Below are positions 49,498-56,012 of a stretch of DNA of 64,000 nucleotides, piece by piece (the stretch's first letter is position 1; the number at the start of each line of letters is the position of its first letter). Origin of the DNA: Natrinema salsiterrestre (GTDB lineage: Archaea; Halobacteriota; Halobacteria; Halobacteriales; Natrialbaceae); contig NZ_JAMQOT010000002.1 in assembly GCF_029502005.1 (NCBI RefSeq), forward strand, positions 434,001-498,000, in the 5' to 3' direction. The notes under the pieces were generated by a model, which was not told where the DNA came from, did no database searches, and saw only the letters and a list, made by a program, of their open reading frames with translations. Position numbers and translations under genes: made by a program.

Positions 49498-50511
49498 TTA
49501 TTCGGCGAACTGTCGCTCGAGCAGCGTCGTCAGCAGGTAGGCGGCGAGGTTCGCCGTCTCGTCGGTGGGGTCGTACGGCGGCGCGACCTCCATCAGGTCG
49601 GCGGCGCCGACGGCGGGATGCGCGCCGAGCGTTTCGACGACGGCGAGCGCCTGCGAGGCCGAGAGGCCGCCGGGTTCCGGCGTGCCGGTGCCGGGGGCGA
49701 CCGAGGGATCGACCGAGTCGATGTCGAAGGTGACGTAGACGGCGTCGGTCTCGGCCGCGGCGTGCTCGATGGCGTCCCCCACGACGTCTCGAACGCCCCG
49801 TTCTTCGACGTCGCGGATGGTGAATAGTCCGAGCCCCGTCTCCTCGGCGAACTCGAAGAACTCGGGCGATTCGTAGCCGCGGATGCCGACTTGCGCGACG
49901 TGTTCGAAGTCGGTGTGGGGCGAGTCCGCGATGTGATGGGTCGGCGAGCCGTGGAAGTCGGTTCCGAAAACCGGGCTCTCCGCGGCGGTGTCGGTGTGGG
50001 CGTCGATCTGGACCAGCCCGACGGTCTCGTGCTCCGAACCCTCCGCGAAGCCGCGGAACGCGGGGAACGTACAGTAGTGATCGCCGCCGATGAAGACCGG
50101 CATGACGCCCTGTTCGGCGACGGTCGCGACGTGGGCCGCGATCGATTCCGCGGTCGTCTCGAGATCCATCGGAAACACAGGCACGTCGCCGCAGTCGACG
50201 ACGTCGAGGGAGCCGAAGTCGACCTGCTTGCCCGTCCGCATGTTCGTCAGCCCGCCCTTGTAGCCCGAGAGGTAGGCGAGCCAGCCGCTGGCGCGGCGGA
50301 CGGCCCGCGGGCCGTACCGCGCGCCGGGTCGATTGCTCACGGAGCCGTCATAGGGAGCGCCCAGCACCGCGGCGTCCGCGCCCGCGACGTCCTCGACGTC
50401 AGTGGGATCGCTCTTGAGGAACGTGTCGAAGCCGGCGTAGGCGAGTTCGACCTCGCTGCCGGGCGTCGACTCGCGGAACGCCGCCGCGGGACTCCGATCC
50501 TCGTCCGTCAT
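49498..50511 (-). CDS. speB: Agmatinase-family ureohydrolase
   Basis: A 337-residue Mn-dependent enzyme that removes urea from a guanidino compound. All metal ligands are visible: FIGGDHYCTFP, VQIDAHTDTA and FDIDSVDPSVAPGTGTPEPGG. The last stretch also matches guanidinobutyrase, guanidinopropionase and similar enzymes, so substrate identity is open. Its ATG overlaps the aminotransferase stop by four bases (ATGA), so the two are translated together. The product amine would fit a class III aminotransferase. Confidence 0.87.
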   Translation of the reverse strand: MTDEDRSPAAAFRESTPGSEVELAYAGFDTFLKSDPTDVEDVAGADAAVLGAPYDGSVSNRPGARYGPRAVRRASGWLAYLSGYKGGLTNMRTGKQVDFGSLDVVDCGDVPVFPMDLETTAESIAAHVATVAEQGVMPVFIGGDHYCTFPAFRGFAEGSEHETVGLVQIDAHTDTAAESPVFGTDFHGSPTHHIADSPHTDFEHVAQVGIRGYESPEFFEFAEETGLGLFTIRDVEERGVRDVVGDAIEHAAAETDAVYVTFDIDSVDPSVAPGTGTPEPGGLSASQALAVVETLGAHPAVGAADLMEVAPPYDPTDETANLAAYLLTTLLERQFAE

Positions 50512-51848
50512 CGACCGGCCTCCAGTTCGGCGTCGATCGCGTCGCGAATACCGGCGACGCCCCGCTCGAGTCCCTCGCGGTCGATCGAGAGCGGCGGCTG
50601 GAGCCGCAGGACGTTCTTGTAGTAGCCGCCGACGCCCGCGACGATCCCCTGCTCGCGGAGGTAGTTCCCGACGTGTTTCGCGAATTCGGCGTCCGGTTCG
50701 GGCGCGATGCCGGCCGGCCCGGTCCCCGCGCTGGGATCGACGAACTCGAGTCCCTGCATCAATCCGATCCCGCGCGCCTCGCCGACGACGTCGTACTCGG
50801 CTTCCAGCGCGGCCAGTTCCTCGCTGAGCCACGCGCCCTGCTCGCGGGCGTTCGCGGTGACCTCGTCCTCGAGGCGGTCGATCGTGGCCAGGGCGGCGGC
50901 GCAGGCGACGGGGTTGCCGCCGAACGTCGAGAGGTGGTCGCCGGAATCGAAGGCGTCCGCGATCTCGGCCGGTGCGGTGAACGCGCCGAGCGGGAGGCCG
51001 TTCGCGATCCCCTTGGCCTGCGTGAGGATGTCCGGAACGGCGTCGTAGTGCTCGCTGGCGAACAGTTCGCCCGTCCGGCCGTAGCCGGACTGGACCTCGT
51101 CGGCGATCAGGAGCGCGCCGTGGTCGCGGGCGATCTCCTTGAGCCGCCGCAGATAGCCCGTCGGCGGCACGATGATCCCGCCTTCGCCCATCACGGGTTC
51201 GACGACGATCGCCGCCAGATCGTCGGCGGTGTGGGTGCCGATCACGCGCTCGAGGTCGGCCGTCGTCCGTTCGACGAACGTTTCGTCGTCGGCGTCCCGG
51301 TACGGAGAGCGGTAGCGGTACGGCGCGGGCGTGTGCGCGACGTCGTTGATCGTCGGGGCCATGTCGGCCTTGTACGCCTTGTTGCCGGTGAGCGCGAGCG
51401 AGCCGAGGGTGCGGCCGTGAAAGCCCATCTCGAGGGCGATAACCTCCTTCGAGCCGGTGTACTTCCGGGCCAGTTTGATTGCGCCCTCCACGGATTCGGT
51501 CCCGGAGTTACAGAAGAACGTCTTCTGGAGGTCGCCGGGAGTCACCTCGGCGAGCCGTTCGGCGAGCTCCGCGGCCGGGCCCTGCGGGTGGACGTACGTA
51601 CAGCCGTGGACGAACTCGTCGAGCTGATCCTTCGCGGCCTCGACGACGGCGTCGTCGCCGTGGCCCACGTTCGTGACGGCGATCCCCGAGAAGAGATCGA
51701 GGTACTCGTTGCCCTCGAAGTCCTCGAGCGTACAGCCCGTCGCCCGTTTGACCGGGACGTGCAGGTCCTTCCAGATCGGCATCAGGTACTCCTCGTACTG
51801 GTCGGTGATCCCGTCGTTCGTTACGGTCGTGTCTGTCTGGCGTGCCAT
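50508..51848 (-). CDS. Class III PLP aminotransferase (GABA/ornithine/putrescine type)
   Basis: A 446-residue enzyme of the aspartate-aminotransferase-fold family III. Key parts: FFCNSGTESVEGAIKLARKYTG, IVVEPVMGEGGIIVPP, LLIADEVQSGYGRTGELFA and the PLP lysine K279 in ILTQAKGIANGLPLGAF, followed by HLSTFGGNPVACAAALA. It uses an omega-amino compound, probably the product of the coupled ureohydrolase. Control sites lie just upstream, and the divergent NrpR-type regulator gene is 243 bases away. Confidence 0.88.
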   Translation of the reverse strand: MARQTDTTVTNDGITDQYEEYLMPIWKDLHVPVKRATGCTLEDFEGNEYLDLFSGIAVTNVGHGDDAVVEAAKDQLDEFVHGCTYVHPQGPAAELAERLAEVTPGDLQKTFFCNSGTESVEGAIKLARKYTGSKEVIALEMGFHGRTLGSLALTGNKAYKADMAPTINDVAHTPAPYRYRSPYRDADDETFVERTTADLERVIGTHTADDLAAIVVEPVMGEGGIIVPPTGYLRRLKEIARDHGALLIADEVQSGYGRTGELFASEHYDAVPDILTQAKGIANGLPLGAFTAPAEIADAFDSGDHLSTFGGNPVACAAALATIDRLEDEVTANAREQGAWLSEELAALEAEYDVVGEARGIGLMQGLEFVDPSAGTGPAGIAPEPDAEFAKHVGNYLREQGIVAGVGGYYKNVLRLQPPLSIDREGLERGVAGIRDAIDAELEAGR

Positions 51849-51858
51849 GGTAGATTGC

Positions 51859-51923
51859 GTGGCAGTAGTATGCCACCCTTGCCACCCTCTTACGATGACG
51901 AGACCAAAAGCTTTGAGGTCTCG
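51859..51923 (-). promoter_or_regulatory. Aminotransferase control region
   Basis: Three symmetric elements precede the ATG at 51848. GTGGCA (51859-51864) and TGCCAC (51871-51876) form an inverted repeat of the type GTGG-N10-CCAC. TGCCACCCT is repeated directly at 51871-51879 and 51880-51888. CGAGACC (51899-51905) and GGTCTCG (51917-51923) enclose a TATA-like AAAGCTTT. The first motif recurs in front of the symporter gene. Confidence 0.6.
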
Positions 51924-52002
51924 AAATTCGCTACGCGGTCAAATTACGACGACAACGGCGACCCGAGCGGACTTCGATCCGGTCGACGACCGCAGTATAT
52001 GC

Positions 52003-52016
52003 GGAAGAATTCTTCC
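52003..52016. promoter_or_regulatory. GGAA-N6-TTCC palindrome, candidate NrpR operator
   Basis: GGAAGAATTCTTCC (52003-52016) is a perfect 14-base palindrome and fits exactly the operator form GGAA-N6-TTCC known for NrpR in methanogens. It lies between the aminotransferase gene and the NrpR-type gene (ATG at 52092), beside a TATA-like AGTATAT (51994-52000). A second TATA candidate, TTTTTATCG at 52061-52069, would give a leaderless regulator mRNA. Confidence 0.65.
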
Positions 52017-52091
52017 ACCTGCTCTCGGGAGGGACGACCGCGGCGGAGGGTCGACAGGGATTTTTATCGGGGGAGGGAAACGATCGGACGG

Positions 52092-53057
52092 ATGGTCCCG
52101 AACGACGACCGGCGCACCTACGATCTGTTACGCCTGATCGGCGAACACGAGCCGATCGGGAGTATCCGACTCGTCGAGCAGATGCAACGACACGGCTACT
52201 CGATCAAGGGTCGGACGATCCGACTCATGCTGTCCGATCTCGACGAGGCCGGCCTGACGGAGAAGGTCGCCGGAAAGGGACGTAAACTGACCGATCGGGG
52301 CCGAAACGAACTCCGACGGGGCGACGTCAGCGGGCGTCTCGAGAGCGTCCGGGAGCAGATCGCCACCCTGACGAGCCGGGTCACGTACGATCCGACCGAC
52401 GACGTCGGCGAACTGGTCGTCGGGACGGTACGGCTCAGCGACGACGCGATCGAACCGGCCTTCGACCGCCTCGAGGCGCTTCACGAGTCGGGCCTCGGCC
52501 CGATCCTCGTTTCCGCGACCGGCGAATCGGGCGACGGGATCGAGCTGGCCTTCCCCTCGAGCATCTCGCTGGACGGCGTCTTGCTCTCCCACGGGATCGA
52601 CTCGCGGCTGATCACGGCGGGACTGGTCGAGTACGACGGCGAGATCAAGCGATACATCGACGCGATCAGCGGCGAGGACGCGACGATGGACGTCATCAGC
52701 CTGCTCGTCGAGGCGGGGCGGACCGACGTCGAACGCTACCTCGACGGTGAGACCGGCGTGTTCATCGTGGACAACCGGGAGTTTCCGCTCACGCGCTTCG
52801 AGGAGGGGCGGGACCTCGCGGCGGCGACACGCGACGCGATCGGCGGCGCGATCGACCTCCGCCGACCGCGCGAATCGGGGCCGTTTCCCGCCGGCAATCC
52901 CAGCTGGGACTTCGCGTCGCTCACGTACGTCGGAGCCAGCGAAACCGCGATTTCGCTCCTCTCCGAACACGGGCTGGGGACCGAGTGGGAATCGCTCGCC
53001 GGCATTCGTCCGCGCAGCGAGTTCGAACCGGTGCCGACCGCACGCCGACGGTTCTGA
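52092..53057 (+). CDS. NrpR-type transcriptional regulator
   Basis: 321 residues from the ATG at 52092. Residues 1-75 are a winged helix: RRTYDLLRLIGEHEPIGSIRLVEQMQ, KGRTIRLMLSDLDEAGL, GKGRKLTDRG (parts). The rest is one NrpR regulatory domain (DUF128), with VGTVRLSDDAIEPAFDRLEAL, LAFPSSISLDGVLLSHGI and LTYVGASETAISLLSEHG. In methanogens NrpR represses nitrogen-assimilation genes and is released by 2-oxoglutarate. Only one regulatory domain is present here. It probably controls the adjacent aminotransferase, ureohydrolase and transporter genes. Confidence 0.85.
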   Translation: MVPNDDRRTYDLLRLIGEHEPIGSIRLVEQMQRHGYSIKGRTIRLMLSDLDEAGLTEKVAGKGRKLTDRGRNELRRGDVSGRLESVREQIATLTSRVTYDPTDDVGELVVGTVRLSDDAIEPAFDRLEALHESGLGPILVSATGESGDGIELAFPSSISLDGVLLSHGIDSRLITAGLVEYDGEIKRYIDAISGEDATMDVISLLVEAGRTDVERYLDGETGVFIVDNREFPLTRFEEGRDLAAATRDAIGGAIDLRRPRESGPFPAGNPSWDFASLTYVGASETAISLLSEHGLGTEWESLAGIRPRSEFEPVPTARRRF

Positions 53058-53132
53058 GCGGGTGACGGTCGGGAGAAAACGGAGACGGTTAGTACCGAAA
53101 TCGAAGACGGTCGAAACCGAAATCGGCGGCCG

Positions 53133-53360
53133 TTACGACGCGAGCAGGATCCCGGCGACGAGGATCACGAAGAACGCGGCCCACATCGCCAGCGACTGCA
53201 TCGTGTACGATCGATCCTCGAGCGGGGTGACGGCAGACAGGCTCCCGCTGTCGTCGTCGAACCCTTGCGTGACGAACCAGTAGACGACCAGCGAGCCGAA
53301 GGCGAGTTCGGCGAGCCAGAACACCGCAATCATCACGGTGAAGGCGGTTTGCCCCATCAT
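53133..53360 (-). CDS. Small two-helix membrane partner of the symporter
   Basis: A 75-residue protein with two hydrophobic helices (about residues 3-28 and 52-74) joined by a polar loop QGFDDDSGSLSAVTPLEDRSYTM. Its ATG overlaps the symporter stop by four bases (ATGA), so it is translated with it. Small membrane partners of SSS permeases are known for some families (for example the DUF997/PanF and DUF4212 groups); this one matches none that I recognise. Confidence 0.7.
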   Translation of the reverse strand: MMGQTAFTVMIAVFWLAELAFGSLVVYWFVTQGFDDDSGSLSAVTPLEDRSYTMQSLAMWAAFFVILVAGILLAS

Positions 53361-54880
53361 TCGTCCTCACCTCCGTCGGTTCGCGCGGCCGATTCCGCGT
53401 CGGTCGCGGGTCCGGTCGTCGGCTCGCGCGCGATCGAGTCGAACTCGAACTCGTCCGGAGAGATCGCCGAGACGACCACGGCCAGCGCGGTCGCGAGGAG
53501 GTGGCCGACGGCCATGATCTCCCAGAGCTTCAGCGACGGTTCCGTGACGACGACGCCGTAGTTCGCCGCCAGCAGGTAGCCCGTCACCAGCTGCGAACCG
53601 ACGACGCCGGCGATGAAGCCCTCACTCGAGGTGCCCGTCCAGAACAGGGACAGCGCGAACGGACCCACGAGAGCCGTCGCGCCGATGCCGCCGATGAGCA
53701 GCAACTGGATGAACCCGAACGTATCGAGTGCGAACACCGTCGCGCCGAAGATGATGACTGCGAACCCGAGCGACGCGACTCGAGCGACCCGGAGCTGATC
53801 CTCGTCCGAGGCGTCGGTCGCGAGGTGGCGGTAGTAGATGTCCCGCGACGTGAGGCTCGCGATGGCGGTCAGGTAGGAGTCGACGGACGATCCGAGGACC
53901 ATCAGTGCGATTACCAGGAAGAGGATCGTCGCCCAGCCGGGCAAGAGCCCGAGCGCTTCGATCGAGAGGTTCCCGGGTGCGACCTCGGGGAACGCGGCGA
54001 GGCCGACGAGCCCGATGACGCCGTACATCGCGATCGTCGTGAAGACGCCGATCCCGCCGGCGGTGAGGAATCGGGACGTCTTGTCGCGGCGCACGGCGAA
54101 GATGCGCTGCCACGTCGACAGCGAGACGACGCCCCAGACGCCGAGTCCGAGTGCGTACGGCAGGAACAGGTCCTCGATCCAGTTGAGGTTCGACGCCGTC
54201 AGGAACGGGTCGGCGTTCTCGCCGAGGTTTTCGATCATTCCCTCGTAGACGCCCGTCGGGCCACCGGCCTCGAACAGCAACAGCGGAACGAAGACGACGG
54301 TCAGGATGATCGCGCTGACGAACTGGACGAGGTCGGTAGTCATCGATCCCCAGAGGCCGCCGAGCAGAATGTAGATCCCGATCGTCCCCATCAGGATCGC
54401 CATCACGACGTTCGGGTCGATCCCCGTCAGCCCGCCGATGACGGTTCCGCCCACGTACAGCTGGATGACGCCGCCGAGGATCATCGTGTACAGAATGACG
54501 AAGATCACGGCGACGTGGGCGCGTTTGTCGAACCGTTCGATGAAGTACTCGCTGTAGGTCAGCCCCTGCGGGAAGAGTCGGCGCATCCGGAGGGCGAAGG
54601 GAATGACGATCAGCGAGGAGAGAACCGCCGGGGCCGCGTACATCCAGATTCCCGCGACGCCGGTGATCCCGACGTACTCGGGAACGCCGAGGATGTCCCC
54701 CGCCCACATCCACGTCACGGCGAACGACGCGGTCGTCAGACCGACCTGCGCGCGCCCGCCGGCCGTGATGAACTCCCTCGTGTCGTCGACGTGTTGTCGT
54801 CGGAAGATGAGATAGCTCAATCCGACCATCGCGACCGCCCACGCGCCGAGTAGCGCGTAGCCGATACCGGGACTACTCAT
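53357..54880 (-). CDS. Sodium:solute symporter (SSS) family transporter
   Basis: A 507-residue permease with 13 hydrophobic helices in the SSS/LeuT-like fold. N-terminal features are DDTREFITAGGRAQVGL and TWMWAGDILGVPEYVGITG (parts); VGLAAFPEVAPG and SSVDSYLTAIASLTSRDIYYRH are typical of the core, the last carrying Na-site-like serines. It imports an organic solute using the sodium gradient. In this locus the solute is probably an amine or guanidino compound. It has a coupled small partner and a GTGG-N10-CCAC motif upstream. Confidence 0.9.
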   Translation of the reverse strand: MSSPGIGYALLGAWAVAMVGLSYLIFRRQHVDDTREFITAGGRAQVGLTTASFAVTWMWAGDILGVPEYVGITGVAGIWMYAAPAVLSSLIVIPFALRMRRLFPQGLTYSEYFIERFDKRAHVAVIFVILYTMILGGVIQLYVGGTVIGGLTGIDPNVVMAILMGTIGIYILLGGLWGSMTTDLVQFVSAIILTVVFVPLLLFEAGGPTGVYEGMIENLGENADPFLTASNLNWIEDLFLPYALGLGVWGVVSLSTWQRIFAVRRDKTSRFLTAGGIGVFTTIAMYGVIGLVGLAAFPEVAPGNLSIEALGLLPGWATILFLVIALMVLGSSVDSYLTAIASLTSRDIYYRHLATDASDEDQLRVARVASLGFAVIIFGATVFALDTFGFIQLLLIGGIGATALVGPFALSLFWTGTSSEGFIAGVVGSQLVTGYLLAANYGVVVTEPSLKLWEIMAVGHLLATALAVVVSAISPDEFEFDSIAREPTTGPATDAESAARTDGGEDE

Positions 54881-54927
54881 CGCCGATCACCTCGCGGACG
54901 AACCGATCAGGCGGGTCCGTCCCATGG

Positions 54928-55016
54928 GTGGTAATAGGTTGCCACATCCTGCTCACCACATATCGGACACTTCTAATAAATGTTGTGGTGAGGCCTATCA
55001 CACATCGTTATACGAC
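54928..55016. promoter_or_regulatory. Shared symporter/cyclase control region
   Basis: GTGG (54928-54931) and CCAC (54942-54945) with a 10-base spacer recreate the motif before the aminotransferase, 48 bases upstream of the symporter ATG and near its expected start site. A TATA-like ATTTATTA for the symporter lies near 54972-54980 on the minus strand. A related TGTG-N11-CACA (54984-55002) precedes the TATA-like GTTATAC (55008-55014) of the cyclase gene, whose transcript would be leaderless. Confidence 0.55.
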
Positions 55017-55036
55017 GCCGTCCGCTGGGTACCGCT

Positions 55037-55678
55037 ATGCACGTCGATCTGAGTCACCCGATCCGAACCGGGATGCAAACCTATCCCGACGATCCGGCCG
55101 TCGTCGTCCGCCGGCACGCGGGCCACGATGAACACGGCGTCCGCGTCGACGCCCTCGAGTGCGGGAGCCACACCGGCACCCACGTCGACGCGCCCGCGCA
55201 CACGGAGCCGGACGGGAAGACCCTCGAGTCCTACCCCGTCGACCGGTTCGTCTTCGACGCGGTTCGCGTCGATTGTCGCGATCTCGGCGCTCGCGAGCCG
55301 ATTCCGGCCGAGCGGATTCCGGACGTCGACGCCGATCTCGTGGCCCCCTGGACCGGCTGGGACGAACACTGGGGCACTGAGCGGTACCTCGACCATCCGT
55401 ACCTCTCGCCGGCCGCCGCCGAGGCGTGCGTCAAGCGGGGGTTCGACGTCGCAGTGGACGCGCTCAACCCCGATCCGACCCCGACGGAGAACGCCACCGA
55501 CGACGAGCCCGAGGGGTTTCAGGTCCACCACGCGCTGCTCGGCAACGACCTGCTGATCCTCGAGAACCTGACGAACCTCGAGGTCGTCGGGGACCGGTTC
55601 GAGCTCCGGGCGTATCCGCTGGCACTCGCGAGCGACGGTGCGCCGGTGCGGGCCGTCGGGGTCAGTAATATGGAATGA
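55037..55678 (+). CDS. Cyclase/kynurenine-formamidase-like metal hydrolase
   Basis: A 213-residue member of the cyclase family (PF04199). The metal motif HTGTHVDAPAH is at about residues 45-55, preceded by LSHPIRTGMQTYPDDP and followed by LVAPWTGWDEHWG and LLGNDLLILENLTNLE. Family members hydrolyse N-formylkynurenine, isatin or similar amides. The gene is divergent from the symporter with shared control sites, so it likely acts on the imported compound or an intermediate. TGCCACCCT occurs again right after its stop (55682-55690). Confidence 0.88.
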   Translation: MHVDLSHPIRTGMQTYPDDPAVVVRRHAGHDEHGVRVDALECGSHTGTHVDAPAHTEPDGKTLESYPVDRFVFDAVRVDCRDLGAREPIPAERIPDVDADLVAPWTGWDEHWGTERYLDHPYLSPAAAEACVKRGFDVAVDALNPDPTPTENATDDEPEGFQVHHALLGNDLLILENLTNLEVVGDRFELRAYPLALASDGAPVRAVGVSNME

Positions 55679-56012
55679 CTCTGCCACCCTAACGGACCCT
55701 CGAGACGACGCAGTTACTGGTTGACTACCGAGACGAGCGCCGACGTTCGATCGAACGGTCGCATTCCGTTCGATCTCGTCCCCTCACTTCACACCGATTC
55801 TCGGGCGACAATCGTCTCCCAACGGACGGTTGTCACGATCTCGCCATAGTATGTTAGTCATTACCATGGTACGATCGACGAGTGATCGACGGAACACGCG
55901 AACGTGCGACGTATCGGGCGGGTGATCCTAGCAGCGCGAAACGATCACGTCGCTATTTGCAGCCGTCACACGATGGGATCGGTGCAGTCGGCGGCAACTG
56001 GAGGGACTCACG
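55679..56012. other. Intergenic region with palindromes
   Basis: 334 bases without a gene. It contains the half-site TGCCACCCT (55682-55690), a perfect CGTTCGATCGAACG palindrome (55744-55757), a second CGTTCGAT (55767-55774) and TACCATGGTA (55862-55871). AT-rich CATAGTATG near 55845 could be a TATA element for the cupredoxin gene with a long leader. Confidence 0.35.

Follow-up and report, generated by a model that had tools for sequence, protein, structure and literature searches.

NrpR of Methanococcus maripaludis has two NRD domains and governs nif, glnA and glnK-amtB. Its operator is GGAA-N6-TTCC, and a sodium symporter gene is among its targets (PMC2723118). The same operator is known from Methanobacterium BRM9 (PMC4335013), and GGTA-N6-TACC is a potential NrpRI operator in M. 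mazei (PMC3177094), in which NrpRI works with NrpRII, according to the title of Weidenbach 2010, cited in PMC3177094. According to a study of Haloferax, haloarchaea lack a conserved master regulator of the NrpR type (PMC6801745), which agrees with the local role proposed here for a haloarchaeal NRD regulator. Our search of the open-access literature found no description of these haloarchaeal regulators.

We compared these systems with a locus in the window, a 64,000-nucleotide stretch of the Natrinema salsiterrestre genome. The window regulator resembles M. maripaludis NrpR in joining an HTH to an NRD domain, in the GGAA/TTCC half-sites six bases apart at 52003, and in having a sodium symporter gene as a putative target. 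It differs in its single NRD domain, in its usual half-site, GGCA/TGCC with an ACC extension, and in its predicted control of a local catabolic cluster. M. mazei NrpRI is closer in architecture, with an HTH, a single NRD domain, a length of ~320 residues and the same operator spacing, but it pairs with NrpRII, whereas the window genome encodes one NRD protein in total and no second that could be an NrpRII partner, and the two regulators fall in separate clades. In layout the locus is like those of local catabolic-operon repressors, with the regulator divergent from its probable target operon and predicted operators at the start site. Those repressors usually come from substrate-sensing families, whereas the window regulator is built from the parts of a nitrogen regulator. 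The fold and operator geometry of a global nitrogen repressor appear to serve a mobile catabolic cluster.

The NRD regulator and its gene cluster

The original prediction described a perfect GGAA-N6-TTCC palindrome beside an NrpR-type gene, and both are present. The features of the locus are as follows.

49498-50511, minus strand: agmatinase-type ureohydrolase (arginase family), second gene of the putative target operon
50508-51848, minus strand: class-III aminotransferase, first gene of the putative target operon; closest solved relatives are 4-aminobutyrate transaminases
51861-51877, plus strand: operator 1, primary, predicted; GGCA-GTAGTA-TGCC-ACC, ~20 bp from the aminotransferase start codon
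51904-51913, minus strand: TATA-like AAGCTTTTGG of the aminotransferase gene, invariant but for one position in the four-genome alignment
52003-52016, no strand assigned: operator 2 core, regulator-proximal, predicted; perfect 14-bp palindrome GGAAGAATTCTTCC
52061-52067, plus strand: TATA-like TTTTTAT of the regulator gene, 28 bp before the ATG, suggesting a leaderless arrangement
52092-53057, plus strand: NRD regulator, 321 residues, with a winged HTH (HTH_12, residues 13-74) and one NRD domain (85-311)
53357-54880, minus strand: sodium:solute symporter (SSF), putative target gene
54927-54943, minus strand: operator 3, predicted; GGCA-ACCTAT-TACC-ACC, ~41 bp downstream of the symporter TATA-like element
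54972-54983, minus strand: TATA-like ACATTTATTAGA of the symporter gene
55037-55678, plus strand: putative cyclase/arylformamidase-like hydrolase, conserved cluster member
55672-55688, plus strand: operator 4, candidate site; GGAA-TGACTC-TGCC-ACC, overlapping the cyclase stop codon

Both domains of the regulator score above their Pfam cut-offs (HTH_12, 44.1 bits; NRD1_2, 68 bits), and a search of NCBIfam gave it no name. Its AlphaFold model (mean pLDDT of 87) matches the NRD domain of MJ0159 from Methanocaldococcus jannaschii (PDB 3nek; Foldseek E of 5e-14), with a Z of 22.5 and an rmsd of 2.9 over 217 aligned residues. The sequence identity is 20%, and 3nek is the domain alone, solved without a DNA complex. 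On its domains and predicted fold the gene is a member of the NrpR family. The N. ejinorense regulator is 88% identical to it.

NRD genes are present in 44 of 391 Halobacteria genomes (~11%), and in 27 of 125 from the Natrialbaceae. In methanogens of the same phylum, NrpRI-like proteins join an HTH to a single NRD, and most of these organisms also encode another NRD protein. In our tree the haloarchaeal regulators group as a single clade separate from NrpRI (support 100/100), although the two branches are long and rooting was at the midpoint. The group that includes the window regulator falls with genera from other families, which suggests that the cluster was transferred between families, rather than that a nitrogen regulator was kept since a methanogen ancestor. 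Two related genomes have regulator genes with one in-frame TAG (L034, G046:C1:1823118-1824110; L035, G047:C60:114262-115254), which are possibly pseudogenes or sequencing differences. In the window, the frame of the regulator runs for 794 codons without a stop (50673-53057, plus strand), antisense to the aminotransferase and reaching far upstream of the true start, and automatic annotation could stretch the start over the operators.

Across families, the core cluster comprises an agmatinase-type ureohydrolase, a class-III aminotransferase, the regulator, an SSF symporter and a cyclase-family hydrolase, with an ABC transporter operon replacing the symporter in other loci. No regulator gene other than the NRD gene was found to be conserved from cluster to cluster. 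The closest solved relatives of the ureohydrolase include, as deposited, probable agmatinase 2, proclavaminate amidinohydrolase, guanidinopropionase and guanidinobutyrase. A reasonable guess at the pathway leads from a guanidino compound, through an amine or GABA-like product, to an aldehyde.

Spacing and distribution of the operator motif

The regulator is the putative binder of four operators at this locus. Operator 1 is the most widely conserved; it is the window copy of GGCA-N6-TGCCACC, which is common to the upstream regions of regulators down to 53% identity. Operators 1 and 2 both fit GGNA-N6-TNCCACC. This extended motif occurs four times in the window, always within 51861-55688 (3.8 kb), and 0.31 sites are expected per window. 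At the density of the other 20 genome matches 0.016 would be expected in the 3.8-kb stretch (P ~3e-9). The genome holds 24 matches, 17 inside ORFs and seven intergenic, and four of those seven lie at this cluster. Inspection of the remaining intergenic matches showed none resembling a nitrogen-assimilation promoter, and no extended site was found at glnA, glnK-amtB or nif in this own-genome scan. The predicted regulon is thus local, covering ureohydrolase, aminotransferase and transporter rather than glnA, amt or nif. Remote matches in the genome (L048, L089, L091, L092, L097, L107) gave no convincing further target. In a relative that has no symporter (G067), operator 3 is lost too.

We compared regulator neighbourhoods from 27 Natrialbaceae, one Haladaptatus locus and 20 loci from other haloarchaeal families. 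The pattern GG.A-N6-T.CCACC gave 77 hits in the first set, 52 in the second and 0-8 at other spacings. Collapsed to unique sites, with the window represented by a 19-kb segment, there are 117 at N6, found in 49 of 49 regulator loci, and 2-8 at each of N2-N5 and N7-N11; some of the 117 lie within genes, a few of them as coincidences of the coding sequence. One such case is GGGATCATCGTGCCACC inside the aminotransferase gene, which we rejected as an operator since it reflects the protein motif GGIIVPP. The motif was absent from all 13 control neighbourhoods, which have agmatinase or aminotransferase orthologs (up to 83% identical) and no regulator; these come from genomes lacking the regulator gene or surround distant paralogs.

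The usual haloarchaeal half-site is GGCA/TGCC, in the full form GGCA-N6-TGCCACC. GGAA/TTCC accounts for a minority of sites in the clade to which the window regulator belongs, and GGAA and GGTA forms also occur in haloarchaea. The L131 regulon holds all three half-site forms (GGCATATCTATGCC, GGTAATACATTACC and GGAACCCGTATTCC), and GGTA-N6-TACC sites are present in the symporter promoters of L130-L133 and L135. The match to the Methanococcus operator claimed in the original prediction therefore extends to the geometry, but not to the usual haloarchaeal form. Its suggestion that the operator was conserved from methanogens to halophiles fared similarly: the N6 geometry is common, but it belongs here to a separate clade with a predicted local regulon, and probably not to an NrpR ortholog on nitrogen-assimilation genes. 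The ammonium-transporter promoters of 13 methanogens yielded just three symmetric N6 sites, no excess over other spacings, and none of them bears the ACC extension; this is a small sample for judging whether the extension is peculiar to haloarchaea.

These data define a family of NRD regulators with a well-defined predicted operator and local regulon in about a tenth of the sampled haloarchaeal genomes, and the motif is a ready-made tool for regulon prediction.

A site just 3' of the cyclase gene, like operator 4, is kept across families though the downstream genes differ (L066 at 10504, L065 at 8478, L131 at 4089, L132 at 3983, L133 at 3561 and L135 at 3719). Operator 4 in the window has no promoter at the usual distance.

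The palindrome at 52003-52016 and its partner site

The palindrome lies between the start codons of the aminotransferase gene (51848, minus strand) and the regulator gene (52092). With its ACC extension, operator 2 spans 52003-52019. Its centre lies 82 bp before the regulator start codon, at a distance of 142 bp from that of operator 1. It is the single GGAA-N6-TTCC in the window. At least one turns up in 52% of dinucleotide-shuffled versions of the window, with a chance expectation of 0.81 per window, and a pattern search finds 71 in the 4.79-Mb genome, so the bare match is not significant. A genome-wide search had been proposed as a check, and the short pattern alone carries no weight in it, whereas the extended motif clusters at this locus. 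The reversed pattern occurs five times in the genome; its composition differs from that of GGAA-N6-TTCC, and we therefore set the genome-wide count aside as evidence and took spacer variation on the fetched loci as the fairer control.

Conservation is what makes the site significant. In an intergenic alignment of four Natrinema genomes, 11 of 11 core positions (GGAA, TTCCACC) are invariant, as against none of the six spacer positions, and the flanks as well as the spacer have drifted. With a local background invariance of 32%, core conservation has P ~4e-6. The perfect palindrome itself is not kept upstream of the orthologous regulators: the sequence is GGAACAATTCTTCC in the nearest relative, with GGAAATTAAGTTCC and GGAAATTCTATTCC in the remaining ones. 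Thus, it is the half-sites that matter and not full 14-bp symmetry, and on this alignment the perfection of the palindrome is accidental. The site is very probably an operator of the adjoining NRD regulator.

Alignment of 79 target promoters on the operator centre revealed an AT-rich peak at -42 to -39. The usual distance from TATA centre to transcription start is ~27 bp. A TATA element ~40 bp before the operator places the operator at or just downstream of the expected start site, and primary operators would thus begin at or just after transcription start. This geometry holds in the window for 51861, ~41 bp past the TATA-like element that serves the aminotransferase-agmatinase operon, and for 54927 at the symporter. 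At the 52003 site neither strand has a TATA at -40, which rules out action in the manner of the primary operators. The site lies ~35-55 bp upstream of the regulator TATA box. It was described as sitting in the divergent promoter of the regulator gene, and it is in the shared intergenic region, but not at the regulator's core promoter.

A two-site layout is also found in another family (L130-L133, L135), where the second site is GGTA-N6-T(T/G)CC. The centre-to-centre spacing of the pair is 142, 142, 142 and 143 bp in Natrinema and 141-146 bp in the five genomes of the other family, and the distance from site to regulator ATG in the same nine genomes ranges from 60 to 82 bp. In two further genomes the pair spacing is 180 and 192 bp. 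Because the regulator tree places the two lineages as sisters (99/98), common descent may account for some of the agreement in spacing. From these comparisons, 52003 is the predicted regulator-proximal partner of the stronger and more widely conserved operator at 51861-51877.

Proposed mode of regulation and related regulators

The motif, its spacing, conservation and co-occurrence with the regulator, the promoter positions, the pair spacing and the NRD fold were read from sequence; binding, repression, the oligomer, looping, the effector and the substrate are what we infer. We consider it likely that 52003 is one of two operators in a control region common to the NRD regulator and the divergent aminotransferase-agmatinase operon, and that the regulator represses through GGNA-N6-TNCC(ACC). 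It would bind this motif as a symmetric oligomer. The primary operators, 51861 and 54927, would lie at or just past the points where transcription of the aminotransferase-agmatinase operon and the symporter gene begins, and given this position bound protein would block initiation. The 52003 site would be an auxiliary partner, ~142 bp from the primary operator and upstream of the regulator TATA box; its most likely role is to reinforce repression, through co-operative binding or through a loop, and it may in addition adjust expression of the regulator gene. The NRD would bind an effector, either 2-oxoglutarate, as in NrpR, or a pathway metabolite, and this would release the regulator under conditions in which guanidino or polyamine-like compounds have to serve as nitrogen sources. 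The identity of the effector can be addressed with one purified protein and short DNA.

The strongest competitor treats 52003 as a stand-alone autoregulatory element that represses or activates the regulator gene from upstream of its TATA box, independently of 51861. The site's place 35-55 bp upstream of that box would suit such a role, and GGNA-N6-TNCC recurs at the same place in other genera. However, across the nine genomes the distance to the regulator ATG (60-82 bp) varies more than that to the primary operator (141-146 bp), which favours a working pair, and sites at the transcription start are the rule for this motif. We regard independent action as possible but doubtful. That the palindrome is a chance match, as the one GGAA-N6-TTCC expected per 64 kb and the 71 in the genome might suggest, is very hard to reconcile with half-sites kept in four genomes while the flanks drifted, with four sites clustered in 3.8 kb and with a strict N6 across 49 loci.

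The identity of the binding protein raises two more alternatives. Co-occurrence of motif and regulator is not proof of binding, and a different transcription factor encoded elsewhere could bind the motif, with the NRD gene merely linked. This is improbable, since the motif accompanies the NRD gene at 49 of 49 loci and the same enzymes without it at none of 13, its geometry is that of known NrpR operators, and the NRD protein is the sole regulator found conserved across the clusters. Equally, the domains and operator geometry shared with NrpR and NrpRI could mark the protein as an NrpR ortholog acting as global nitrogen regulator through GGAA-N6-TTCC. Against this, the cluster accounts for four of the seven intergenic extended sites and the others are unlike nitrogen-assimilation promoters, the gene is patchily present (44 of 391 haloarchaeal genomes), and its clade is separate from NrpRI; we think such a role most unlikely.

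Operator control by a locally acting NRD regulator may extend to a second site type. The clade-B regulator is tied to a GSA-aminomutase-like aminotransferase, the promoter of which carries ACCGGAA-N6-TTCCGGT (L060-L064, L067, L071, L074, L079-L085, L144, L148, L149). CCGGAA-N6-TTCC gave 56 hits against 0-7 at other spacings, a count in which fully symmetric sites score on both strands and some hits are chance matches within genes. With this form and the three half-site forms observed, the half-site geometry is common, and the third base and extensions are variable. Two regulator paralogs ~6 kb apart may use different sites. A broader reading, to which we give a little under even weight, is that the haloarchaeal NRD regulators are a local, cluster-bound family reading a common GGNA-N6-TNCC with lineage-specific extensions and third base (mainly GGCA-N6-TGCCACC in clade A, ACCGGAA-N6-TTCCGGT in clade B), in which adjacent paralogs would read different sites and sense a pathway metabolite, not 2-oxoglutarate.

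Within the GSA-like aminotransferase gene, a GGAA-N6-TTCC occurs at a fixed position, 756 bp downstream of the one in the promoter, in L079, L081, L083, L084, L085 and others; the protein motif EPExGFL probably accounts for it, and we set it aside as an operator, an internal operator being the less likely reading. A further conserved palindrome, CCAAACCTTGG or CCAAAGCTTGG, is found ~45 to 33 bp before the regulator ATG in L027, L028, L032, L039 and L045, near the regulator core promoter and mostly in two-paralog clusters.
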